Origin: Phoronis ovalis
Lineage: Eukaryota; Phoronida; Phoronidae
Direction of reading: 5' to 3'
NCBI GenBank assembly: GCA_028565635.1
Contig: JAOXYB010035283.1
Span: 1-29,307, forward strand
Length of the DNA: 29,307 nucleotides
Shown here: positions 4,286 to 24,465 of the stretch, in pieces
How positions within the stretch are numbered: the first letter of the stretch is position 1
Layout of the letters: each line of letters starts with the position of its first letter
The notes under the pieces: generated by a model
The model's input: the letters and a program-made list of their open reading frames with translations, nothing else
What the model was told of the DNA's origin: nothing
Database searches by the model: none
Program-made: the position numbers and the translations under genes

Positions 4286-7200
4286 ACAACGAAAAGAGAA
4301 GCAATGTGTATTTAAATTTATGGGAATCACAGGCCCAGAGCCAAATGTTGTGTTTGGAAATGTACATCAAGTTGGAAACAAGGTAAGTCTTAGAGTCGTA
4401 ATATTATTAGTAAAACTAACTATTGTATCCTGTTGTATGTATTATCGGCAGTAGTTCGTTGGATGACAATGAGGAATTAGGGCCGAAGTCATTCAACTGT
4501 ATTATTTACAGACAGTTTCAAGGTTACTGAACGTATAGACTTGATTACTCACTAGTACTCACTATGAAAATCTAACATTACACATAAATTAGAAATAGTA
4601 ATGCAAATAAAAACAAAATTGAACCCCAAAAGTACATTGGCATATTTTATTTTCCCAATTTGTTATTAAGGACAGTTATTTGTGTCATGAACCGAAACGA
4701 GATTAATTATCACCACACCGTATAAGGGGGAAACAAAACAAAAAATTACAATGCAATAACAATTATAATGTGATTTTTTATCCCAAAAGTGCATTGACAT
4801 ATTTCAAATTTTCCCTATTTGTAACATAGTTAAATAACTTTATTGCTTATTAAACATTGCTCTTGATTTCATGACCACAGCCGTATAGATAATGAGACAT
4901 AAATAAGAAAACAACTATGATGGTATTGGAATTATATGCAGAATACAAAAGGATTTAGACAACAAACTAGTAAACAATCTAAATTTATCAAATATTATTT
5001 GTTATCTTGATAGGATTTGTCTTATCTCTAGTATCTTGAACATAACACTAAATATGAGTGCTTTTGGAAAAATGTCAAGTCTGTGTTATTAGTCTATTGT
5101 TACACTTCATAAAATTTTAAAATCTCTTCTATTATAGTATGTTTATCGTTATTTCTTATTTATAGTGGTATTGGTGGCAATTATAAATAGTTTATTGTCG
5201 TATTTCACGATATGCCAAATTCTTGTTTGTAATAAAAAGTGTACTTTGGCCTTTAAATGCGTCCTCGCACTGACTGGATGTTACGAAATTACTGATTACG
5301 GAAGCCAATGACTGATTAGTGCCAGGACCTAGCTAGTATTTACGAAAATAAATCAATTCGGGTTTAAACGCAATTATACTTGTTGAATGTAAATGTAAAA
5401 CAAGCATAACAGAGCGTTTAATTGTTATTCTTGATTTTAAAAATGCACGCTGATAAATTTCATAAAAGAGAAAAAAATAATTTAAAAGCAAAAGTCACAT
5501 TAGCCGTTAGTATAAGGTACAAAGTTTACACTTTCTATTGGGAAACGTTCTTATCTCTAATTCTGTTGCATCTTACCAGTTAACGGCTGTCGCGCGTCGG
5601 CCTAAACCTTAGTTATGTACTAAAATGTGTCCCTCTAGATCCCCGTTCTAGATCTTTTTAACATAATGAATCATGCATCTGTTCATGCCTCTGGAAAATC
5701 CTGGGAAACCGGGATGTCGCAAGGTTTTCATACCTATAAAAATATTTCAAAAATAGATAATATTTAACCTTGTTCAGAGGCAAGTTCCACTATTCAAATG
5801 TATGTACCAGAGCGTGATGTTTGGTGTGAAACTATTAAAATGTACATGAACACAAAAAAGTTCGCGACAAGATAATGATCGCTTTTTAATGAAATATAAA
5901 ATTAAAAAGCCACTGGTGTCTTTCACAGAGCGGTACACACGGCTCGAATGGTGGGTCTAGGTCAAATAACTGACGAAATACCATTCTGTATCGTGCAAAT
6001 AATGGGTGACAATCTGTGAGCCTTGTCGTAAAACTCATAAAGCTATCCGTACCGTGCCAAATGTCCCCGTGTTGACCTACCTATACTACCTAATTTTCCG
6101 ATATGACGTCCAATTACTGTCTAAGTTTTAATTACTCACTAATCGTTTTTCATTTTAAATTGATAAAGAGGTAAAAATAAAAGTATACTCATGCTGCAAT
6201 AAAAATATCAAAAAAATATATGCACATGCATTAAAAAACAATATAAAAAAAAATGAATTGCACACATCTAAACACATTTTAAATAAAGTAACATGTGGGC
6301 ATATCTGTATGTTCATGAAAAAAACTGATATCACGTGAATTGCACACATCTAAACAATTTTTAAAAAGTAATAATATGCCAGCATACATGCATGTTCACA
6401 CAAAGCTATGTTGGACCATGAGTCCCTGCTGATTGCAAATATACATTTTTCAGTCTTATCTACCTATCGACATTTACGTTTAATAGATTGTCTTGAATAA
6501 CATAGAATAACAAATGCGTTGCTAGACTTTAATATTAAAAATCATATTTACAAAGTACAAAAGACCTAGATATACAGGTTTACAGATTGCTATATTTTTA
6601 ATGACAAGGATACAAAAAATGCAAAAAAAACCTACGTAAGTTTAAACCAAGTTCGTAAAAAAAATAATGCAATTAATCATATTTTTTGCACACATTTCAG
6701 CTACACCTCGCTAATTATCTATCAGATATAAACAACTAGAGTTGTTTTTTATAAGTATTTATTATTTTCGAATTTGATGTCAAAATTAAAAACCAACAGA
6801 TCACGCTAATGGGATTGTCAATAGCTATAATATTTTTTCTGTGGTCAAACCCGCTTATTTCTACTCATAAACCCACTATAAATTGTAGTCTCAATAGTCT
6901 CACATTACAAAAGATTCATTGATAAACTTTTGATATCGGCACCTAATAATATGACTGAAAACGGGCTGGTGGCAAACCTGATGAGTAAAGAGAAGCAAAA
7001 GTTTCAAATTTCGTTTTTACTACTATAACATTTAACCTTGTCAATTCCAATAATGAGATAACGCATCATTTTCAATTTGGAAAATTTAATAAAAATTAAA
7101 GGTTAACGACAGCTGTTTTGTAAAAATATAATAAAACTAGCCGCCACATAATATAATCCGTCAAAATTCACGGCACACAATTTAAAGGTTGTCATAACCT

Positions 7201-10200
7201 ATTATATTATTTTGTATAGACGTGGTTTTATTTAGAATTCATTACATGATTTCTGTCTCTTGCTACTAGAGCCTGGTATCATGTTCGAATTCGCTGTGCT
7301 TTTGATACTTTGGACAAATGTACGGGTCAACAAAACTGTTCTACTATGTCTTTGCCCCTGATTGCAGAATGGGAAACTGTATAGCTTAATTTTTATCACA
7401 TTATGTGTGTGCAAAATTGCAAACATGAGCGCCCTCTGCTGGATGTGTTTAAGGAAATTATGTGGTTCCCACGGGCAATGAATTTGTAGCTCGCATAGTA
7501 TATCAAACAGCATTATTGTGAATTGCATTGTCCTATCTTTTTCCAGAAACTTTATGAGGCAATCCGTGATTGGACCAAAGAATATGGTAAAACCTATGGG
7601 TATTTCGAAGGTCCTTCTCCTATATTGGTGACATCAGATCTTGAAATTCTTAAGCAAGTTTACATAAAGAACTTTAGCAGCTTTCATGGGAGAAAGGTAA
7701 ATATTCTCAATATCGCACTTTGCTGCAAACTTGAAACTTTATACAAGAATAGATATCCTGCTTTTCGTTGTATTAATCAAATCTGTCTACGCCGCAAATT
7801 TCTTGTACTGGAAAATCAGAGAAAAGTTCTTAATAAAACGAGAACATTAACAACTTGGCCTTTTTTTGACAAGAATCGATATCAGCATAAACTTTGATGT
7901 AGCGACATATTATGATTGTGGGAACACCCTGGTTTTCTATTCATTGTTTCATTTTCTCATTTTAGCCATTACCTGTTATGCCTGGTCCCGAAACAGGTGA
8001 TAGTAAAGACGTACATCTATTCCTATCACGAGGCGATAGATGGAAGCACTTGCGCACTGTAATAAATCCAAGTTTCAGTGCAGCGAAAATGAAGCAGATG
8101 TCACCGATAATAAATAAATGTGCCGATGAAATGGTTAACAATTTGGAAGAAAAATGTCAAGATGGAAAGTCTTTTGATATTTACAGGTATGTAATCAAAC
8201 GGTATTTTTATTCAAATTCTACGAAGAAGTCCGCATGGTTGTGAAAGCCACGAAAAGTGTTTGAGACTTGATTGTTGGCGTTGCTTTTTGTGCGAGTATT
8301 TGTTGTATAGCTGGTACCGTTTGTGCTTATAATAACATTTTCCGTTTTTTTTTTCAGTATCTTACAAGGAATGACGTTAGACGTCATAGCTGAATGCGCG
8401 TTTGGTATTGAAGTCAATTCGCAGAAAAACCAAGATGATCCATTTTTACACAGATGTCGTCTGCTTTTTGATGAAAATACTCACAGATTGTGGTTACTAA
8501 TTCTCGGCAGTAAGTAGCTTAGATTGAATATTCACTAATGCTAAAAAAATACATGAAAAATAGCACCTTAATGTAAATATATGCATGTAACACGTTACAG
8601 ACCGCGACTTTTACTTTATTACAGAATTGAATATTACTGGTATGTAACTTCCATTTTGATCCATTCATTTATATAGTTATATAGAAATAGCAAAACAGTA
8701 TATTTATATAAAAAGTGAAACAGAAGCCGAAATTATTCTTAAAAAAAGATATGCACAAACACATGAAGAAAAAATACCTTTGAGGATAAATATCATATTA
8801 ATTGAACTTGTGGCGTAACTTGAAAATTCTTTGGTGAAAAATAATCCTTTTTAACTTTATTACTTCAGTTCTGTTTCCTGAAGCCAAAGGGTTCTGGTGG
8901 AAATTGCATAAATTCCTTGGATATTTCCGAGAAGACACGATGGAATGGTTGTTTAACAATTTAGGAAAAGTTATTGAAATTAGACAGATGCAAACAGAGA
9001 AATGGGTAAGTAATGTTCTACAACTGAGCCATTCTGTATGACTAACATCTATAAAAACCTAAACAAAGCAGGAAAAGCAACTGTACTTGGACTAAAGCAA
9101 GATTGCAAAGAGTCACCGAGCAGAACAACTATTAACAATCATTATCAAATAAATTAATCATAAATTAATCATAAATTAATCATAAGCTAATGAATAAGTT
9201 TGATCTTGTTTATAGGCAAGGGTTGACCTTTTGCAACTGTTACTGGAAGCAGAAGTTAACGCTGTTTCAAGACGCTCTTCGGCATCGCACCTCACCATGA
9301 CGGAAAATGACCAAGATGCGAATAACAACATGGAAGAAACACTTGAACCAGAGAGTGCCACTAATTCAAACAACTTAGCGTCATCCCTAACAAAACGCTT
9401 GCTCTCATTGCAAAATGGTGCACGAAATAGATCGTCATCTGGGTCATCATCATCATCATCCTCATCAAACGACACCCGTAATGGTTACGTATTTGCAACG
9501 AGCCCCAAAAACACTACAGAAGAAAAGAAAACAAAGAAAGAAAAAAGAGTGCTTACAATGGATGTAAGTACACTTGTTGTATTCCGTCTGTACAAAAAAT
9601 AATTGGTCTTATGCACTTGGCTTAAATTTGTTTTCTCTGAATCACCACTGCAGCAATAAAACAAAAAAAAATTGCAGCGGCTTTCTTTAAGATAAAACTA
9701 AGAGACAAACTGAAATTGCTAGTGTGCTGACAAACATTGTTCCCTTAAGGTTTAAATGGTGTGTTTGGACAGCCTAATAAAAATTTAACAACTTGTTTTA
9801 TCTTTACAGGAAGTGAAATCTCAGTGTGTCTTATTTCTACTTGCGGGTTACGAGACAACGAGCACATTATTGGCATATGCATCCTACGAACTGGCACGTA
9901 ATCCCGAAGTTCAGGAAAAATTACAAATGGAAATAGATCGTCACTTAGTGCCAGCAGTAAGTAAATGTGAATGTTGTCTTATTTCATCTTTTTGGTAATT
10001 ATTCCGTTTTTTTTTGTTGTTATTGCTCTATGAAACTACATGCGGTTAGTTGCAAACAAACATGATTTAGTTTGTATTGCTGATAAATATTAATATTAGT
10101 TAGCTCTATTTACACAATATCTAAATATATCAATTCTGCTTTGGATCTATTCCTTATAGATCAAACACAGAATGAGTTATAAAACAGCGTTACTTTTACT

Positions 10201-11229
10201 GATTACAAATTGGGTAAAATCTTACATTTTTGTGTATTTTAGGAGAAAATTGGTTATGAAGCAGTGTCTAGAATGTCTTACCTAGATATGGTAATAAACG
10301 AGGTGCTCAGGATGTATCCATTAGCAGAAATGTAAGCGTGCCTTTACACTAAGTTTACAATATCAGACTTGGATAAAGGGGTTGCCCCTGTAAAAGTTCT
10401 TGGATCCGAGTCTGAGTATAAAAAGGAATTTATTTGATACTATAAACGTGCTTGTGGAAATCTCTTAAGGGCTATTAAACAAGTTAAACAGCTTACATAT
10501 TAAAATAATTGTTAATATATTTTCACATTTTGTATTTTCAGTTTACAAGGTAGACAATGCATGGAAAGCTGTACAGTCAGCGGTATTAACATCCCAACTG
10601 GTATGACAATACAGCCTGATATCTGGAGCATACATTATGACCCTGAACACTGGGGACCAGACACAGAAGTTTTTAACCCAGATAGGTAAGATTTTTATCC
10701 TACAAAACACACACACACACACACAATGTTAGTGTATGTAGTTATCAGGTAAAGAGTATTGATAATTGTTTCACAGGATTGATTGTAAGCTATTTATGTA
10801 TCTGAAGGGAGTTTGTTTATCATTTTCAAATTTGTTTCTCGCTCACTCATTAAATGTTCTCAAATATCTAGTTACTGTCATTGACGAAACCGATGTAATC
10901 ATGTTGCTTCCTTTTGCAGACATACAGCTGATAAAAAAGCCAACAGACATTCAATGGCATTTATGTCATTTGGTTCAGGGCCTAAAAACTGCGTAGGAAT
11001 GAGGTTTGCGCTGATGGAAATAAAGATCGCTTTAGTAAAAGTTTTACAAAAGTTCACAATTTACACGTCGGAAGAAACGCAAATTCCATTAACACTTGTT
11101 GAAGGAGGTACTTTGACTCCAAAAGATGGTGTAAAAGTAAGACTTGAAAAAAGAAAAGACATTTGTGACATTGCTAGCCCCACCACATCAGACTATCATT
11201 CAGATATGTCGGAAGTATTCGAAGAGTAA
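4286..11229 (+). CDS. Cytochrome P450, CYP3 clan (CYP3A/CYP5A-like), 5' partial, 10 exons
   Basis: Haem-thiolate monooxygenase, by family anchored in the ER and fed by NADPH-P450 reductase; the substrate cannot be told. Exons: 4286-4382, 7547-7696, 7966-8186, 8358-8509, 8869-9005, 9216-9563, 9810-9956, 10243-10331, 10542-10685, 10920-11229; all introns are GT-AG and phases agree, giving about 597 residues plus a missing N-terminus. Motifs in order: proline-rich hinge GITGPEP after the missing anchor; C-helix WKHLR (WxxxR); I-helix AGYETTS with the acid-threonine pair; K-helix EVLR (ExxR); FNPDR in place of the PERF motif; haem loop FGSGPKNCVG with the ligand Cys codon at 10990-10992. The end MRFALMEIKIALVKVL and ETQIPL resembles CYP3A more than thromboxane synthase, whose I-helix differs. 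The first exon junctions fall where I recall vertebrate CYP3A junctions. Oddities are a long polar insert (exon at 9216-9563) and an acidic C-terminal tail. Confidence 0.93.
4605..4825. repeat. Diverged direct repeat pair in P450 intron 1
   Basis: The segment near 4605-4666 and the one near 4751-4825 share a core beginning CCCAAAAGT, followed by CATTG, CATATTT and TTTTCCC, then TTTGT. The spacing is about 157 bp. This is an old tandem duplication or remnants of one mobile-element family. Confidence 0.55.
6255..6398. repeat. Tandem direct repeat, two copies, about 82 bp period
   Basis: Copies at 6255-6315 and 6337-6398 both start GAATTGCACACATCTAAACA and end in ATG-TTCA; the middle parts are diverged (TTTTAAA and GTAA shared). 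Located in P450 intron 1. Confidence 0.75.
7429..7442 (-). promoter_or_regulatory. Sequence matching the CTCF core motif
   Basis: GCGCCCTCTGCTGG on + reads CCAGCAGAGGGCGC on -, which fits the core consensus CCASYAGRKGGCRS at all 14 positions. It sits 104 bp upstream of the P450 exon at 7547. Binding is an inference. The same string also occurs by descent inside some transposable elements in other animals. Confidence 0.35.
9151..9183. repeat. 11-bp tandem repeat, three perfect copies
   Basis: AAATTAATCAT is repeated three times without change, 33 bp upstream of the acceptor of the P450 exon at 9216. It may overlap the branch-point region of that intron. Confidence 0.85.
10707..10724. repeat. 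(AC)9 microsatellite
   Basis: A dinucleotide run 21 bp after the donor of the P450 exon ending at 10685. Confidence 0.9.
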
Positions 11230-14161: not shown

Positions 14162-14539
14162 TGTTTCCTATTGCTTAGAAAAGCTTGTAATGAAATTTAT
14201 TCTGCAATTATCACTTAAATATATAGCTTTGTCCCATGATTTAGAATTTGTCTTATGTAACTTCTAGAAACATTAACAGATAAAACTAAATACGATATAG
14301 AACAATTCCATACATTGATTTACCTTCGCAGACAGGTTTATAAGGCATATCTCAATTTTATTTAGTGTCAAGTACAAATCTAATTTAAAACATCCCATAT
14401 TCTAATTGATAACAGCACTGCACTGTGTTACAAATGCCATACCTATTTCTTCAGAATGTTATTTTAATTTGTTTCATATAAAAAAGGCAAGCAATGTTAT
14501 TTTAAAAACAGTTCTAAATACATTACCATTACGGAAAAC

Positions 14540-14545
14540 TTTATT
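14540..14545 (-). terminator. Candidate polyadenylation signal for QDPR
   Basis: TTTATT on + is AATAAA on -, about 136 nt after the QDPR stop codon at 14681. No cDNA end is visible, so this is a positional inference. Confidence 0.45.
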
Positions 14546-14680
14546 TATACAAATTTAGAACAATTTGGAATAATCTATCTAAATCCCAGAAAGAGCAATT
14601 ACTGGAATGTTCACAAGACATCAGGCACAAAAAGCACAGCATCTAAACATGGACAGCACTGTAGAGGACAGCAAATTAAT

Positions 14681-17600
14681 TTAGTTAGCCACGACAAAAT
14701 CTGTTTTTCCTTCTTTTGTAATAAGTTGTATTAAGCTGCCATTCACAGGACGATTGCCTTGAGTCCAACCGTAGAACAATCTGATAAACAAATACACAAC
14801 TTTAAAAAGCTCAAACATAAAGCATCTTCCGAAATAAAGCAGTAATTTTATTTTTTGAAATTACACAATCACCATTCATTAGTGTAAAGTATTTTAAAAT
14901 TATTCTTTTTACCTCTATAACTGTATCAGCCAATTGCATTTTTAATCTTTCTGTTTCAAAATTTTCATATCACAATGCTAATATTCTTATTTTAGAACAT
15001 ATGGTACTATGCCCTTTATTTATCTATTTATGATGCAACAAATGGGGTAACATTTCATTGTAAATGGTAGTAAGTAACTTACTACACATACAATATTGCA
15101 TATGCAAACAGTATAAAGTAACAGAGTTGTGTTTCTAATTGTTCACTTTTCACTTACTCAGCCACTGTATCCAGCGGTGTCCATGTTGTATGGTCAGCAT
15201 CTGGCATAAATTTTCGATTCATAGGTGTATCTAAAGTAATGCTGGAACAGGAAAATGACTGATAATACTTATGTTAACTCTATTTGTTTGCTACAATATT
15301 GGAAACCGTTAGGTTATGAAAAATGCATCGCAGTACCAAAAATATAACAAACAGCAAAGTTCAATAATCAACTGAAATTAATTTCAGCCGCATACCTTCT
15401 GCAGAAAACCATCCGTGGATATTTAGTTCTTTCACTCAGATAAAAACGTATTTCTTTTAAAAACCTAGGAGCCATATGCATTTAAGAAAACCTAAATATT
15501 TTTTTGGCATTCCAATGAAAAAATTAAGTATTTTTCCTCATCAACTTCTAAATCCATTCCTGCATAAACAATGCTTTAAGGAAATGGTTTCTTCCATTAA
15601 GAACAATCACGCATTCTTACGGGAGGATAGCTGCCACTGTACTGTTGGATGGAAGTCCACTTTTGTCCTCAGCTAAACTTTTGACCAATTGATGAACTGC
15701 TGCTTTTGCCATACCATAACCAATCATCCCTGTAAGGAACACGACATCAAGTTCTATCCAATCAGATGCACAGAAATCCCTTTAATGTGGCTACCAATGT
15801 CTCATTAAAACATGACCTCCAAGTAACTCATCTTATCAATTCAAAATCAGTGTCCGAAAGTATTTCAAAGGAGTTATGACACTTGACAATGAAATGAACT
15901 AAAGAATGGTAACAGTTATGAAAATTTCCTACATTTCATATCGAATAGTTAAAAGTGAGTTAAAATGCAATATGCCAGCAGCTTAGACAAATATCACTTT
16001 AATGCCTTGAAATGGCTACAAAGTTTGATTGAACATAGTCAGTTCTATACTCCTAAGCCAAGTGGATATCAACTTGGCGACAGCAGTGACAATTTAGTTT
16101 ATTATGACAAACTTTTATTTTACATGGACAGATTGTTTCATGTTTAAAGAAGTAAGTGCTAACTTTATGTGGTATAAGAAATGAGTATTCAATGAAACAA
16201 ATCTTTAGTCACATTCTGCAGCCTCCACACTTACCTGGTGTGCCACTGAGTGCTGCCTGGGCACCTGTTAGTGCTAAAACTCCACTTTCCTTCATATGTT
16301 TGCTAGCGATATGACTAGCAATGGCCGATGTCCAAACACTTTGCTTCCACATCAAATCTGCATTCTTCACAAATTCTATAACAAAACTGTTGCATTTAGT
16401 AAGTACGTTGGATTTACACTTTCAAGTGTTAATTTCTTTTAATTCCAACTCAAACATAGAGAGAAATAAATAATAATAAAATACCATGAATACATGGTGC
16501 AAAATAAAGTCCCACATTAAAATTTTATTTTTCTTTAATATGAAAAGTTTTAGATAATGTATGAAAGAGATGTAAGAGTTAGATAAAAATTAAGAGAAAT
16601 AGTCATGCGTCATATTTTCTGTCAACCAATTTATTTTTGTACTAAGGCAATTTTTACAAGTTATTCCTAGTTTCCAAATGTGGTTAGGCATTGAATAATT
16701 TTCATTGTTTGTAAGATTTGTTTATTTCATGTTTTTATAATGTATTGCCAACTATAAAAATACATTGAATTTACAAAAAAAAAATACAGCACAAAAATAA
16801 AATGCCATTTTCACACGATTTTGTCTGAGTGTGCTTAAAACTATTGGAAGAAACATCTGTCAAAACAGCTACAATTTACACTGTGACAACAAAATGTGCA
16901 TCCGATATATTCCAGATATATACCATAACTTTAATTTTTTTGCTAGTTTTCTGACATTTCTGTACATGTTGTTTCTTGTCTATGGTTTGCCACTTTGACA
17001 TGAGCCACAGTAGCCATATTCCCATGTTCCAGTTATTTTTTTATTATTAACTTCTATCCTCTAGAAGAAAAACGATGATAAATTTTGTAAACAAGGCAAT
17101 GTTTTTTACAGATAAGACAAACGGAGAAGGTTAAATGTCTAGACTATATAGTAAAAATCAATATTTATTACAACAAACAAACAAAATGCTGACTATTCTT
17201 CATGAGTGTGCAAAAAAAGTAAGTTAAATCTCATCATCATCATCAGCTTGCCACTCACATTTTCGTCAATTATTAATAAAGGCTTGCCTTCAAGATACTT
17301 TGTGATACATTATACTCTCTCGCCTTACCATTAGAAGCAGCATTTCCACCTGCCCAACCACCAGCCACGCACACTATGGCATCCACCTTCTCATTACCAA
17401 GAGAGCTTTGTACCGCTTCAGATACGGCTACCTCTTGTTCATGCCAACTATCACAAGGTTTGACAATGATATTAGAAGATGCTTCTTCGTTAGGAAACAG
17501 GTCAATTGAACCAACCCACTGCAAAAGTTCAAAAACAATTTTGCTATGTTTGAAAAAAAATAGCAACCCAAATTTCTTGAAATCGCAACATAGCTCAAAG

Positions 17601-19452
17601 GTGGTGATATAACTGCTTCTGATAAATATTCAAGCTTACTGCGGATTTTACTTATTTTGCCACGAAAAAGCCTGCGCGCGAAATCTGGGAACAAGATAAA
17701 AATGGCTGACAGCCGAAAATTAACCACAAAACTGTACTTCTAAAACAAGGTCCAATAAAAAACAAAATATGTATTATTTTATGTAAGAATAGCTGGTCTA
17801 TCAACAAAAAATATGTGAAAAGGTGTATAAATTTTGCGCTGAATTTCAACTTTTTTATGTAGGAGTTAAGAAGTACTACTGTTAGAAATTAAAAATACTG
17901 CAGCTAATATACATATAGCCTAAACATTTCTTTGAACTATCACTTTAAGGTACTTATTAATAAATGATTGTGTCGTTATAAAGGATTTTGTGTGTATCAT
18001 CAAAGTCTGTCCAACTCCTTGAACGTATAAAAAATAGTTTTTTTTCCTGGTAACTAATATCAAATATAACTTAATCAAGTAGTTGTTGAGATGGGCAGTC
18101 AATGCACTATATATTTATTGATGCATGTTGGGAATTTGATCAGTCTTTAGCTTTAGACACTGATTTATTCTTTTTACACAGATCAATACATTTCCAATAA
18201 CGTATTGCTTTATTTAATACAGTTGTAGAATCATGATTTCTAAAAGTTTAATTTCCTTGTTTAAACCCATCAATCATTGCAGTCTGATAGTATAATAGTA
18301 CTATGAAATCAAAGGTAGTTTTTAAACAATAAAGGTGTATTGATTTTCCATGCACTATAGAAAGATCAGTAATACTCTTCAGTAGACCTATAGCATTTAT
18401 GCTACATCACTCCACTAGTGCACTTAACTTCAGGAACTCTAAATTTAAAAACACCTGATACTGTATCAGGTTTTTAAAATTTAAATTGCATTAAATGAGA
18501 TTATTATTGACACTCCGAGCTGACAAAAACTGCCACAACATGTGGTATATAATATACTAAACGTTTCGATTGATTCGTAAGTCAAATGACAGAAAAAAAT
18601 CACTTAAGCTCTTTTAGCGACTGCGACAACATACAGCATTACTTTAAACATATGCATCCAAATAAGTGCTAAATCATGTGGCTGCAATCACCTGCAACCT
18701 AGTCCTTGTTCATGATGTTCTGCACTAGCTCTGGATAATCTGACTTGTGAGCTGTGTGAACAGTCATGGAATCTTACATAGATAATTACAGTGAAAATGC
18801 TCAAATTTGTAATTTCTACAGAGTGATTCATATATCACGGTCCAGATACTCTCTGAATATCCAACTTCAACTCCCACTACTTCTATGGCCATTTGCAACT
18901 CCCTGTGCTGGCACTCAGAGAACTTGGTTGGTGTATGAGGCCCAGGGTAAAACATGTTTACTGCATGGTAAAAACTGCATTCAGAAGTTTCAAATGGTGA
19001 TGGAAGTATTCAAGTTGATGTTGGATAATGTCTGTTTAATGAGAGGAAATCTGGACAGTAATGTATGAACTCATTCAGTAGGAATGACATAAATTTCGAA
19101 GTTTGGGCACTTTCACTGTAATTGGCTATGTAAGATTCCATGACTGTTCGTACAACTCAAAAGTCAGACTATCAAGAGCTCCAGTGCAGAAGTAGTCAGA
19201 ACATCAATCATCATGAACCAGGAGTAGTCAGGACTACCCGCATTGTCAGAAGTGATTTAAACCGCCTGCAACCCGGCGCGAATACAAATTATTGTAAATT
19301 TTAAGACGAATTTCTACATGATATAAATCCTTGTATATCTTTGTATTTAAGTAGTCACTTACCCAATTTTTAGCTTTAAAAAAAGCTACACAAGCAGAGC
19401 CCAAAGCTCCTTTACCTCCGTAAACTAGCACACGTGAAACAGTTGATGCCAT
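14681..19452 (-). CDS. QDPR: Dihydropteridine reductase, complete, 6 exons
   Basis: NADH-dependent short-chain reductase that regenerates tetrahydrobiopterin from quinonoid dihydrobiopterin in the cytosol, supporting the aromatic amino acid hydroxylases. Exons, in gene order: 19452-19363, 17518-17329, 16375-16235, 15729-15621, 15241-15158, 14780-14681; phases 0, 1, 1, 2, 2 agree, giving 237 residues (the human protein is 244). Visible features: Rossmann loop YGGKGALG at about residues 11-18; Asp36 after the second strand; NEEAS; EKVDA and [11 protein letters not shown] for the central strand; [11 protein letters not shown] helix; catalytic Tyr145-x3-Lys149 in [21 protein letters not shown]-terminal [11 protein letters not shown]. 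The ATG at 19452 is directly followed by the nucleotide-binding strand. Intron 1 (17519-19362) is the largest and holds two inverted-repeat structures. Confidence 0.97.
18441..18482. repeat. Near-perfect 42-bp palindrome in QDPR intron 1
   Basis: The left arm AAATTTAAAAACACCTGATA and the right arm TATCAGGTTTTTAAAATTT meet with almost no loop (CTG at 18461-18463). The ten central bases of each arm pair perfectly; there is one small offset in the A/T-rich outer part. Confidence 0.85.
18700..19235. mobile_element. Fold-back element / long imperfect inverted repeat in QDPR intron 1
   Basis: The two halves are imperfect reverse complements over about 260 bp each. The best block is CAGTCATGGAATCTTACATA at 18761-18780, which pairs perfectly with 19127-19146. 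Pairing continues outwards (TGACTTGTGAGCTGTGTGAAC against GTTCGTACAACTCAAAAGTCA) and inwards (GTCCAGAT near 18840 against ATCTGGAC near 19050, and CCATTTGCAAC against its partner near 18990). The centre lies around 18965, in GTTTACTGCATGGTAAA. It carries no plausible transposase; open frames of 63 and 100 codons on opposite strands are by-products. A non-autonomous fold-back or MITE-type transposon is the likeliest origin. The ends are uncertain by about 20 bp. Confidence 0.75.
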
Positions 19453-19833
19453 TGTTGATTTCCAAAATGACCACTATAAGCGTTGAGGTTGCTTAATTTG
19501 AGTATGATTGAAACTAAAGGATAAACCTATCTTCTCTACAGTTGACTACAAAATGAAGAAAGAATAAACTTTTTAAGCAAATAACGTTACTTTGATTAAA
19601 ATGTAAATTTATGTTTCACTCTAAAAATCCCGTTAGTTCGAGATTACAAACGTTACTTCCCATGTCGGTCATCTTCCTTTCGGTTTGTGGAATGTGAATT
19701 TTGAGGAAAACTGTCAGATTTATGGTTATATTATTATATTTTTGATAAAAGTACGACCTGATGATCGTTTCAAAGTATAAAGAGCATAGAAGGATTCAAG
19801 TATTTTGCCAAAAGGCCTTTGTTTTGGCCTAGG
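19453..19833. promoter_or_regulatory. Shared head-to-head promoter region of QDPR and KCMF1
   Basis: The start codons of QDPR (-) and KCMF1 (+) are 381 bp apart, so both 5' UTRs and core promoters should lie here. ETS-type cores (CTTCC) occur near 19655 and 19672, and ATCTTCC near 19670 could suit a YY1/ETS-type site. These motifs are short and common. A hairpin-prone stretch (GCCAAAA at 19807-19813, TTTTGGC at 19822-19828) ends six bases before the KCMF1 start codon. Confidence 0.6.
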
Positions 19834-22800
19834 ATGTCTCGTCATGAAGGTTGGTAATATATGAAAATAAAAATTGTCTTCGACTTTCGAGTTTTCCGAA
19901 TCTTTGATTAGGTCATTTCTGAAATAGCTCTTGTATTTTTTTAAACATGTTTATCTTGCTGTAATTCGTTTAACTGATCTAACATCTAATATTGTATTCT
20001 AAGATTTTGAAATTGTACTCACTGTGATGAATCGAAAAGCAACTGTGTGTAATTTTGCTAAATCACATATTAACAACTTCCTTTCGCATTTCAGATCTAT
20101 ATCTTCAAGTTCCCAGTGACCATTTCACTATATACCACATAGCTGTACATTATAAGTGTTTAATCTGCTTTCTGAGTCTTTGCAGAACAGAATCTTGCAG
20201 TATAAGCTTTTGTATGGCAGATTAAGATATTACATGTTATAATAAAGTTGACATAATACTCTGACAAAAGAATAATTAAATATAACATATGCGTTCGGCT
20301 GATTGTTTTTAAAGATGCTAATAAAATATAGCAGTTTTACTTTTCTTCCTTGGTCACTATCCAATATTGTCAATGAATGAAAACACTGTTTACTATTCCA
20401 AATACATAACACAATGCAAACAAAAAAGCTCATATTTCAATTATATATGAAAATTAATGTAACTTTTAAAATAATATTTCTTGCATGTATTGTAGGTGTT
20501 CGGTGTGACTCTTGTTCAAAAGGAGACTTCCGAGGGAGAAGATATAAATGCTTAATATGTTATGATTATGATTTATGTTCACAATGTTATGAAAATGGTG
20601 CAACTACTAAAATGCACACTACAGATCACCCAATGCAATGTATTATAACAAGAAGTGATTTTGGTAAGAGCATGCTATATTTTAAATACTTGTTTACATC
20701 ACAAAAACATAATACCATAAAATCTCTTTGTTATTACTATGTTGTTTGTACGGAACATTGTCGTATTCTATGAGAATGCTCTGCAAACTTTCTTTGTTAT
20801 AAAAGTAAGAAAAGGAAAAAGATTAGTAAAAAGCAGCAAACAGTGAATTTGAAATAGCCTAAAATGGATACCGAACTTGTCGCAAATTTTCCCACTTGAA
20901 GAGAAACACTGAACTTTTATTTTAGTAATTCATAAAAACAGCTTTGATTGGCAATGCAGTAAAATTGAGTTTGTCTTGTTAATTGGCTGCCCATTTAAGA
21001 TTATGTGTGATTCTTGACCGACATGATATAAGATACTAGTATTTATTATGAGTGGTGACAACTGGAAACTAACATTTATTGACTGGTTGATTTGTTGCAT
21101 TTCCAGATATATACTACGGTGGGGAAGCCTTAGCAGTTGAACAACCACAGGCTTTTAGCTGTCCATTCTGTTCAAAGATGGGTTTTAGTGAAGCTACGTT
21201 ACAAGAACATGTCACAACAGAACATGCTGACTCATCTACTGAAGTGGTAAGTCAAGTACTCTTTTGATGTGATTCATTTTAACAGCAGCTGTTGTTACAG
21301 TTGGTTATCCAAGAATTAATTCTTTTTGTTGAGCAATAGAATCTTGACATGAGGGTCATTGCAATGTCCTCTCAATCCCTTTAGCAAATAGGCTGCTGGA
21401 AATGTTTTAATAGTTAGCCTCATTGGCCATCATGTGCTTGATGGGATACTGTTCACGTTGTTTCTATTTAGAGCTATTCTATTAAAATTACTAACAGGGC
21501 GATGTGAAATTTTTTGTTTCCCCCCCCCAACATAATAAGTTGTAATGTAGCAGCTGTTAATTGATTGCTTTTAATGTCCAGGTTTGCCCAATATGTGCTT
21601 CGTTACCCGGTGGTGAACCAAACTATGTTACAGATGATTTTGCAGCTCATTTAACACTGGAACATAGGGCACCAAGAGATTTTATATCCTTTGTTTACGG
21701 TCTATAAATAATAGTGAAATAGTCTTGAGCAGGTAAAATAGGTTGTCACATTTTCTAACACATTATCAATATTAAAATTGAACATATAGACACGTGGAGT
21801 GGTAGAAATTATAAGATACCTAACTGTACAAAATTTCTGGTTTTCTATCTTCTGGCACATAATGTCTTCAGCTTTCAAACTTGGTTGTTATAGTTAGGTG
21901 AGTCCCAGAAGGTCTAAAATACATGTGCTGCATGTAAACAATTTATTATTTGGAAATATAACATTACTGATAGCTTTAAAACAAGTTTCCCTTAACTTTT
22001 CTTACGATGATCCTGCGGCTGGCAGTATACGTCATGTTCGTAGAATTCCTCATCCTGCAAGAGGTGTAGGCAGTCAAAGAGCCCGTCGCAATATGCATTT
22101 TCCTACTGGTGGACTGTCCTCAGGAGCAAGGGAAACAATGGATCCTATAGCAGGTAAAATTAGGGATGTAGAACAGCATTGAGTGTTAGGAAATGAGGAT
22201 TTGTAGACTACATTATTTTTTTGCGTGAACAGCAAAGAGAAAAAAATAAAGCCGATCTGTCTATGAAGCTAGATAAACCATCCAACTTTTCTTCACTTAC
22301 AAACTGTGAAACTCAGGAAAGATGCAAAGAACTTTTGACTTCCATTGCGCACATATATTTTGTTATGCGTTCAGAGGAAAATCATTGTTTCTGATTAAAA
22401 ACCCCACAAAAATGGGAATTTTCTGTCATTTTCAGAATTGCTCTCGCAATTATCGAGTGTAAGACATCGTGCAGCAGCTGCGCAAAGTGTTTCATCACAA
22501 TTACAACAGCTAGAAATGCAGTTACAGTCCACAAGGTATAGTATATACATCCTCTTGCATATTATACTTTTATCACCCTCGTTTCAGAATTATTGTCGCA
22601 GTTATCGGGTGTACGTCGAGCCGTTATCTCTGGCACACCACAGCAGTTGCATCAGCTCCAAATGCAACTGGAGGCTGAGCGAGACCAGGCTCGAACGTTA
22701 AGGTAAAACAGTTTATTGTTCTTCTGCCTTGGCTTATGTTTTATGGGAAGTGTATGAGATAAAATTAAAGGTATCCAGGGCTGTATAATTCTTTCCACGA

Positions 22801-24465
22801 TGGTGAAAAAGTATAATGCTTTACATGGATTTTTTGTATTAAATAATTTTCATATATAGCTTTTCTTAAGCGGCTTCTGCTTTTGAGGTTTTCTTAAAAT
22901 TACATATATCCATAATTATTTTAATATATTCATTTACAGTAATAGTTCGCAATTCACAGTTTCGATACAGAGTATCATGCATCTTGCCTTGTAAAATGTA
23001 AGAGTGAAAGTAAGTTTATATCCCATATTATAAATGAAATTATCCTTTGTTTAAACAGAGATCTGAAAATACTGTAATCTTATTTAGACCATGAGTAGGT
23101 GGACTTTGAGGCTCAATAAAAATAAAATATATGAATAAATAATATATGTAATTTATATACCTTTTAAAAACTACCTGTTTTGTGTTTTGTCCAAACTCCT
23201 TATTTATTTGATAAGAAAGAGTAACATGGTGTTAAGGACCCACTGTTTATATTAACAGAATACATTACTCAATATACAATATTACTACCAATTGTAATGA
23301 GATGTGACCATGTGATATCAGTATTTGTTACGTCAAAAATTAGTAAATAAAGGGCATAATACCTCTATACCATGAGATTGCATTTCATTGCAAACAGTAG
23401 TTACAAAAAGTGCTATGCATGAAAAGACCCAATGTTCACAATTCTTAATACAAGTACTTCTGGTCTTTGTCAAAAAAATAACTGATGGCAGTTTATCAAT
23501 TTGCAGGCTCTAATACACGCCTATGAATACAAGGGACGGGATTATAAGTGTCACATGCTCAATTTCTTGGAAATAATTGACTGTTTTGAATCTATTAGTT
23601 CCACTAAAGCTTGAAATGTCTCTTATATTATAAACTAATCTGGAAGATAAATATCTTAGATTTTCTTGAAAGAAAATGTATCATCCAAATATCACGTACC
23701 TGTGCAACATGCATTTTGCAACTCCTACTTAACTGTCAAAACTTAAGGGGCTGTTTAGCCACCTGACTATTTGATGGTATTCTTCTGGCAATTTACACCC
23801 CAACAACTCCGGTTTTAGTATCTTTATTTCCAATCCTACTTTTACAGGCAGCAGTTAGAGAGGCTTCCACGTCGAGCTGCAGAGTCACGGCAAGGACAAA
23901 GCAGTGTAGCAAACGCTAGCATAGAACTTGGCCGTACTTTGGCAGCTAGTGGCACTAGTACTAGTAGCTCAACCAATTCACAGTTTCTTTTGGCTAGGTG
24001 AGTTTTGAATTTAATTTTTTTTCAAGAATGGAGTCCACTCATGGGAGATGTTAGTACGTACCAGTATTCAGGATCCATTTATCCAGTGAATTGAGCTGTT
24101 CACATCTGGCACTTTTGATCGACGTTTTTTTTTCCGAATAGTGTTTGGTGAAACAATATGCTTTTGCTTTCAGATGTAATGAACCAGCTTTGTCTGAAAC
24201 AGAATTACAAGGAGTGGAAACAGAACGTGCTGATAGAAGTTTATTTGTGCAAGAACTTTTACTTGCAACTCTCACTGATCAATTAAAAATTAGTTCTGAA
24301 AGTGCTGATGCTGGGGGTCAAAGTTCAAATGTTCAACTGACCTCTGATCCTGGAGGACAACTACAGATGAAATGTGAAGAAAACAGTAGTAGTGATGGAA
24401 ATAATGTGAAACAAGATGACATTAGTCTTAGGAACAAATCGGAGAAAGAGCCTCCACCACACTAG
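19834..24465 (+). CDS. KCMF1: KCMF1-type E3 ubiquitin ligase, complete
   Basis: RING-less E3 ligase that in vertebrates works with UBR4 and RAD6 in degron-dependent and lysosomal protein turnover. Exons: 19834-19849, 20496-20663, 21107-21246, 21582-21683, 22006-22153, then 22436-22535 or 22588-22702 as alternatives, 23848-23997, 24174-24465. This gives 371 or 376 residues (the human protein is 381). The start MSRHEG matches the human one. ZZ zinc finger: Cys9, 12, 24, 27, 33, 36 and His46, 50 around FRGRRYKCLICYDYDLC. Di19-type finger: Cys80, Cys83, His96, His101, then VCPICASLPGG and DDFAAHLTLEHRAPRDF. Next come RHVRR, GGLSSG, MDPIA, a Gln/Leu-rich segment, NSQFLLAR, and ERADRSLFVQELLL near the end. 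The intron after 21683 is AT-AC (U12 type); the others are GT-AG. The last residues are EPPPH, where the human protein ends in a proline run. Confidence 0.97.
21684..22005 (+). other. U12-type AT-AC intron of KCMF1
   Basis: The intron starts ATATCCTTTG, an exact match to the minor-spliceosome AT-AC donor, and ends AC. CCCTTAAC, close to the U12 branch consensus TTCCTTAAC, places the branch A at 21995, ten bases before the end. Phase 0: the exon ends GAT TTT and the next begins GAT GAT CCT, giving RDF-DDPAAGSIRHVRR, which lines up with human RDLDESSGVRHVRR. No GT-AG choice gives a join that fits the family. Confidence 0.93.
22436..22535 (+). CDS. KCMF1: KCMF1 exon 6a (tandem-duplicated alternative exon)
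   Basis: 100 nt, entered in phase 1 (TTTTCAG before it) and left in phase 2 (ACAAG then GTATAG). It encodes (E)LLSQLSSVRHRAAAAQ, then SSQLQQLEMQLQSTR. It is homologous to the next exon and to the human segment ELLSQLSGVRR through QLQQLQMQLQ. Used alone it joins exon 23848 in frame. Confidence 0.9.
22588..22702 (+). CDS. KCMF1: KCMF1 exon 6b (tandem-duplicated alternative exon)
   Basis: 115 nt, entered in phase 1 (GTTTCAG before it) and left in phase 2 (TTAAG then GTAAAA). It encodes (E)LLSQLSGVRRAVISG, then TPQQLHQLQMQLEAERDQAR. It is closer to the vertebrate sequence than exon 6a at LSGVRR and the EAERDQAR end. If spliced after exon 6a it is read in the wrong frame and hits TGA at 22676-22678. 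Confidence 0.92.
22703..23847 (+). other. KCMF1 intron after the duplicated exons
   Basis: A 1.1 kb AT-rich intron. A weak possible cassette exon at 22940-22990 (CATTTACAG before, GTAAAA after; 51 nt, phase 2 to 2) is the only structure seen. No other copy of exon 6 is apparent. Confidence 0.5.

Follow-up and report, generated by a model that had tools for sequence, protein, structure and literature searches.

The window studied here, a stretch of 29,307 nucleotides from the phoronid Phoronis ovalis (contig JAOXYB010035283.1), carries on its plus strand an orthologue of KCMF1, recognised by its ZZ and Di19 domains, its conserved linker and its C-terminal pin helix. A Pfam scan of the protein matches ZZ and zf-Di19, and human KCMF1 chains match it at an E value of ~1e-130, with both the conserved linker and the pin helix present. 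Spliced reading, Pfam and the human match, with exon places also from the genome search, put the ZZ and Di19 zinc-binding domains and the first linker in exons 1–5 (19834-19849, 20496-20663, 21107-21246, 21582-21683 and 22006-22153). Downstream lie two exons that encode versions of one segment, exon A (22436-22535, 100 nt; ELLSQLSSVRHRAAAAQSVSSQLQQLEMQLQSTR) and exon B (22588-22702, 115 nt; ELLSQLSGVRRAVISGTPQQLHQLQMQLEAERDQARTLR), then an exon that begins QQLERLPRR (23848-23997) and the last coding exon (24174-24465), which holds the pin helix common to human KCMF1 (RSLFVQELLLATL) and the EPPPH end. Intron 4 (21684-22005) starts ATATCCTTT and ends TTCCCTTAACTTTTCTTAC; it is an AT-AC intron, which by its consensus looks like the U12 type. 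Drosophila CG11984 (KCMF1) is named among genes with U12-type introns in the available text of one study (PMC2952598), and Kcmf1-a is listed as such a gene in that of another (PMC7644725).

A genome search of the 77.4-Mb assembly (4805 contigs) found a single KCMF1-like locus; six other matches, considered as possible paralogues, were rejected as short zinc-finger likenesses (best 39 bits). Profile scans of all six frames of the window returned no third copy of the exon at a meaningful score. Fragmentation into so many contigs leaves some room for an assembly error that placed two alleles, or two copies of the gene, one after the other, but A and B are too different for alleles, and with neither a further exon copy in the window nor a second locus in the genome we regard such an artefact as extremely improbable.

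Other features of the window include cytochrome P450 exons on the plus strand (7499-11229; 21.1, 37.8 and 61.5 bits, the first below the curated cut-off of 22.8) and two minus-strand open frames (17273-17629 and 19246-19473) that lie head to head with KCMF1 at a distance of ~360 nt. These frames, which have no Pfam match, look to us like dihydropteridine reductase, and they possibly share a promoter region with KCMF1. Rfam and tRNA scans of the window gave no matches. Elsewhere in the assembly, one contig (C1114:1-15713) reads as a near-complete mitochondrial genome, with nad1-nad6-cob-nad4L-nad4-nad5 on one strand and cox3-atp6-nad3-nad2-cox1-cox2 on the other; the assignments are open reading frame readings of which only COX1 is confirmed by a family match, and a scan with the bacterial code found no tRNA on it. 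Its gene order recalls the chiton or phoronid type with atp6 moved. A KCMF1 tree from which the segment was omitted gives no resolved position for the window gene.

A pair of homologous exons

The original prediction of two tandem homologous exons, with the boundaries given above, was borne out by spliced readings and a shuffle test. The A and B proteins align with a score of 57, above the maximum of 41 obtained from 5000 shuffles of B, and over a 32-nt stretch starting 6 nt upstream of each exon the two sequences share 84% identity. Their acceptors are the same (TTTCAG/AAT, the slash marking the exon boundary), and their donors read AAG/GTATAG for A and AAG/GTAAAA for B. A G at position +5 is absent from these two donors and from that of the preceding exon, and is present at exons 2, 3 and 7; its absence would be in keeping with regulation of these exons but is no proof of it.

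Both exons join as G/AA...AG/G, so that each alone keeps the frame, and the spliced readings have the expected phases and lengths, 371 amino acids with A only and 376 with B only. Joint inclusion shifts the frame, as had been claimed, and yields a reading of 254 amino acids that ends at a TGA at 22676-22678, while skipping of both leaves 194 amino acids with an early stop in exon 23848-23997. The GT...AG intron between them (22536-22587) has the 52 nt ascribed to it. One claim about the segments failed: the proposed difference in charge is not a net one, for A has three basic and two acidic residues and B five and four, giving +1 in both cases, and segment B is only denser in charge than A.

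Two animal types of the segment and the age of the pair

Three protein searches gave 340, 600 and 899 matches. The 120 top-ranked matches from each search together contained 294 distinct relatives (295 sequences before one wrong-frame translation was dropped), which were typed by the core motif of the segment. Among these, 84 are A-type, 210 are B-type and none has both. All 48 species-named A-type proteins among the matches listed are spiralian (we take their phyla to be mollusc, annelid, nemertean, brachiopod or flatworm), while the named B-type proteins that were checked among the matches listed come from arthropods, vertebrates or hemichordates. Species names are lacking for 36 of the 84 A-type proteins and for many of the B-type ones, and the division between clades is that of the named proteins. 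Vertebrate proteins among the matches listed have the B-type segment only. For the third search isoform B, flanked by its own neighbouring sequence, served as query, a choice that should raise any spiralian B-type protein to the top; the best 120 matches of this search comprised 25 A-type and 95 B-type proteins. No spiralian protein with a B-type segment was found among the matches listed, in a database clustered at 90% identity, where isoforms differing only in this exon would be merged and B exons may hide in other spiralians.

Profiles were built from the typed proteins, after removal of those with no clean segment (8 A-type and 2 B-type proteins, leaving 76 of 84 and 208 of 210) and application of a length limit (leaving 23 unique A-type and 98 unique B-type rows). 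Exon A of the window scores 77.1 bits on the A profile against 39.5 on the B profile, and exon B scores 55.7 bits on the B profile against 23.1 on the A profile. By this sequence comparison exon A is of the spiralian type and exon B of the arthropod/vertebrate type, and the presence of both animal types in one genome argues that the pair is probably old.

In 21 of the 84 A-type proteins (P0043, P0049-P0074, P0079 and P0120 range) extra residues were seen exactly between the A segment and QQLE. They number from a single residue, in one case, up to ~40 in the others, bear no likeness to B and fall at a point that corresponds to the site of exon B in the window. Judging from these sequences, an additional exon of optional use may exist at this point in molluscs.

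A tree of the segment was made from the 23 A rows, chosen B rows (25 of the 28 chosen were in the unique set) and the two window exons, over 42 columns only. The 23 A rows and window A lie on one side of a branch with support of 100/100, with window B outside. Forcing window A and B to be sisters costs 16.6 log units (p-AU 0.0455). A grouping that unites window B with all A rows has a p-AU of 0.488 and is not rejected. The branch of window B is long, at 1.44 changes per column against 0.043 for window A, and its place is unsure. Among 20 aligned codons, nine of the 16 residues shared by A and B use different codons, so that the copies are not recent. With the sisterhood of A and B disfavoured, the segment data indicate that the duplication most likely predates the Phoronis ovalis lineage. 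The unsure position of the long B branch is what a duplication of A confined to this lineage has in its favour; B would then resemble the exons of arthropods and vertebrates by convergence. Against such a recent duplication stand the p-AU value for sisterhood and the 32.6-bit lead of the B-type over the A-type profile for exon B, and we consider it very improbable. Exon B looks in these comparisons to be the older of the two, retained next to A, its spiralian replacement.

Since B diverges much faster than A, the main rival to an old pair in use is that B is a dying relic, still open and with splice sites but rarely or never used, while A is constitutive, as it apparently is in other spiralians. 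The difference in end branches (1.44 against 0.043) and the use of B by none of the spiralian proteins among the matches listed are in keeping with such decay. Exon B is flanked by usable splice sites, is in the phase required and stays open over 37 whole codons. Chance produces a frame this long in 5% of draws when the composition is that of the introns and in 18% when it is B's own, so that openness alone is weak support and fits a relic also, and the B-type profile fit is the stronger evidence. G+C content is 0.52 in B; the remaining coding exons range over 0.34-0.50 and the introns over 0.28-0.36. A long-unused exon should lose its coding-like composition, its splice sites, its phase and a 55.7-bit fit to its own type, all of which B keeps, and we therefore think a relic unlikely.

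Probable splicing of one exon at a time

The reading we prefer is that KCMF1 has long carried A and B as neighbouring duplicates and uses only one of them per transcript, and on the sequence evidence we hold it to be probable. Inclusion of A or of B alone would give a full-length KCMF1. Within the 52-nt intron any branch point for B would lie less than 50 nt from the donor of A, and A would not be joined to B. A study of duplicated exons cites ~50 nt as the minimum distance from donor to branch point (PMC7969005), so that every possible branch point in this intron falls under the limit and joining should be sterically blocked.

How unusual such an intron is in this genome was judged from introns estimated between neighbouring profile matches with query gaps of at most 12 residues, 47 of them in chaperonin and myosin genes and 32 in kinesin and SNF2 genes, a sample of four gene families only that leaves out most one-match contigs, the chaperonin rows of C3952 and two of C4686, and the kinesin row C1860:11789-11854, which would not pass this rule. 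All 79 estimates are ~113 nt or longer, and none is as short as the intron between A and B, which is the shortest in the sample; the seven other introns of KCMF1 measure 176-1145 nt. A 52-nt intron changes the frame and would normally split a profile match, and matches that might nevertheless read through short introns were checked for excess length. With an uninterrupted full-length gene set aside, a large inner excess occurs in one chaperonin match (222 nt) and one SNF2 match (399 nt), and the largest in the 81 myosin rows is 39 nt.

Among the kinesin genes, two matches at C1860:11625-11854 cover nearly the same family positions and are 11 nt apart; either part of an exon may be duplicated here too, or the sequence may contain an error.

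Introns of ~50 nt are spliced in some animals, and the steric block may leak for that reason. Transcripts with both exons or with neither would be expected to be removed: the TGA reached on joint inclusion has exon junctions 24 nt and 174 nt downstream, and the stop reached when both exons are skipped has a junction ~139 nt downstream, so that both forms should be targets of nonsense-mediated decay. The same early stops with downstream junctions would suit a regulated off-switch, in which joint inclusion or double skipping produces unproductive mRNA that sets the level of KCMF1 and the pair does not serve to make two useful proteins. Joint splicing is, however, unlikely across 52 nt, and an off-switch needs no full reading frame of a conserved type in B; this explanation seems to us improbable. 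For exclusive use as we favour it, inverted repeats are candidate selectors: there are 14 in 22100-23900 (a raw count), of which two touch the A/B intron. One pairs 22533-22550 with 23146-23163 over 18 nt at 78%, and the other, perfect over 11 nt, pairs 22561-22571 with 22807-22817.

The proposal that the two exons are mutually exclusive is thus supported by the frame logic and by the 52-nt intron, from which we infer how they are used. Its steric component is strengthened by the contrast between 52 nt and the ~113-nt minimum of the 79 estimated introns, together with the ~50-nt limit given in the available text of PMC7969005.

The KCMF1 linker and known exon pairs

According to published work, KCMF1 acts with UBR4 to silence a stress response and to clear orphan and unimported mitochondrial proteins; the N-terminal zinc modules of human KCMF1 read substrates and its C-terminal helix plugs into UBR4 (PMC7618180, PMC12286842). 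In the human match the segment falls between these two parts, in a linker that was not resolved by cryo-EM according to the available part of PMC12286842. The choice between A and B would exchange the central part of the linker that runs from the zinc modules, which read substrates, to the pin helix that locks KCMF1 into UBR4.

The segment had been suggested to be a coiled coil or to bind a partner. By human KCMF1 numbering, the mutations Q226/228/229/231/233E fall on its QLQQLQMQ core, and the available text reports that this mutant entered the complex with substrate degradation unchanged (PMC12286842); another study found the N-terminal domain and linker dispensable for one orphan substrate (PMC7617804). 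Together these results are evidence against the suggestion, and we regard it as weakened. Among 24 aligned A-type proteins, a set found partly through the segment and so biased in its favour, the segment is the best conserved part, with a mean majority identity of 0.98 against 0.86 for the zinc domains, 0.85 for the pin helix and 0.41 for the next linker. The segment is thus best conserved in A-type proteins, and yet the human tests, as far as the available text describes them, found no effect of changing it.

In a structure model of a brachiopod KCMF1 (A-type) the segment belongs to one unbroken helix (193-233), and in that of a hemichordate KCMF1 (B-type) a helix at 195-203 is followed by a break and a second helix at 218-246; these are models of relatives and not of the window protein, and they are poor overall, with mean pLDDT of 49.6 and 53.6; local confidence reaches ~88-89 in the core and is 53-58 in the middle of the segment. 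At the position of the break window B has Gly-Thr-Pro and window A four alanines. On the basis of these models we propose that the exon switch may set the stiffness and reach of the substrate-reader linker.

A broader scenario, which we put forward tentatively and with some doubt, is that Spiralia swapped one exon of a core quality-control gene for a duplicate, and that this species represents a half-way stage with the ancestral B beside A. Exclusive splicing would then have bridged the swap with no loss of function, and unbroken and hinged linkers would give the UBR4 ring two substrate-reader settings. Under this scenario the KCMF1 pair would show concretely how an exon can be replaced by way of a stage of exclusive splicing. 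With both clade types in one gene, the species amounts to a natural swap experiment on the KCMF1 linker.

Human KCMF1, in the UBR4-KCMF1-calmodulin (SIFI) complex, has the same domain order and the same place for the segment in the linker, but no exon pair is described for it in the available text of the structural papers, unlike the gene in the window (PMC7618180, PMC12286842). We found no earlier report of such exons in KCMF1 in open-access full texts; the statement that no published case was known therefore stands within the open-access full texts covered, as identified by title and abstract.

Alternative homologous exons within one gene are also found in muscle myosin heavy chain clusters (PMC2257972, PMC3912159). 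In the present genome a myosin head gene (C3048:2483-3172, 4928-5591 and 14380-16800) has parts that repeat the same family positions, with two or three matches to each; these are probably alternative muscle myosin exons of the known type. Copies in the first two of these clusters lie ~475-490 nt apart, against the 52-nt gap in KCMF1, and distance alone would not exclude their joint use.

Parallels are also found in two other genes. In alpha-tropomyosin, duplicated neighbouring exons exclude one another through a distance of less than ~50 nt from donor to branch point, with the branch point near the donor inside a longer intron, and the exclusion has been shown by experiment. OGDH exons 4a/4b are likewise duplicated neighbours that exclude one another in the way proposed here for A and B, again with experimental proof and with the branch point near the donor of a longer intron (118-131 nt in birds and mammals), whereas in KCMF1 the whole intron is 52 nt and exclusion is predicted from sequence (compared with PMC7969005). 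Exclusive duplicated exons are a known kind; within the literature covered, their occurrence in KCMF1 and the presence of both clade-typical versions in a single genome appear to be new.
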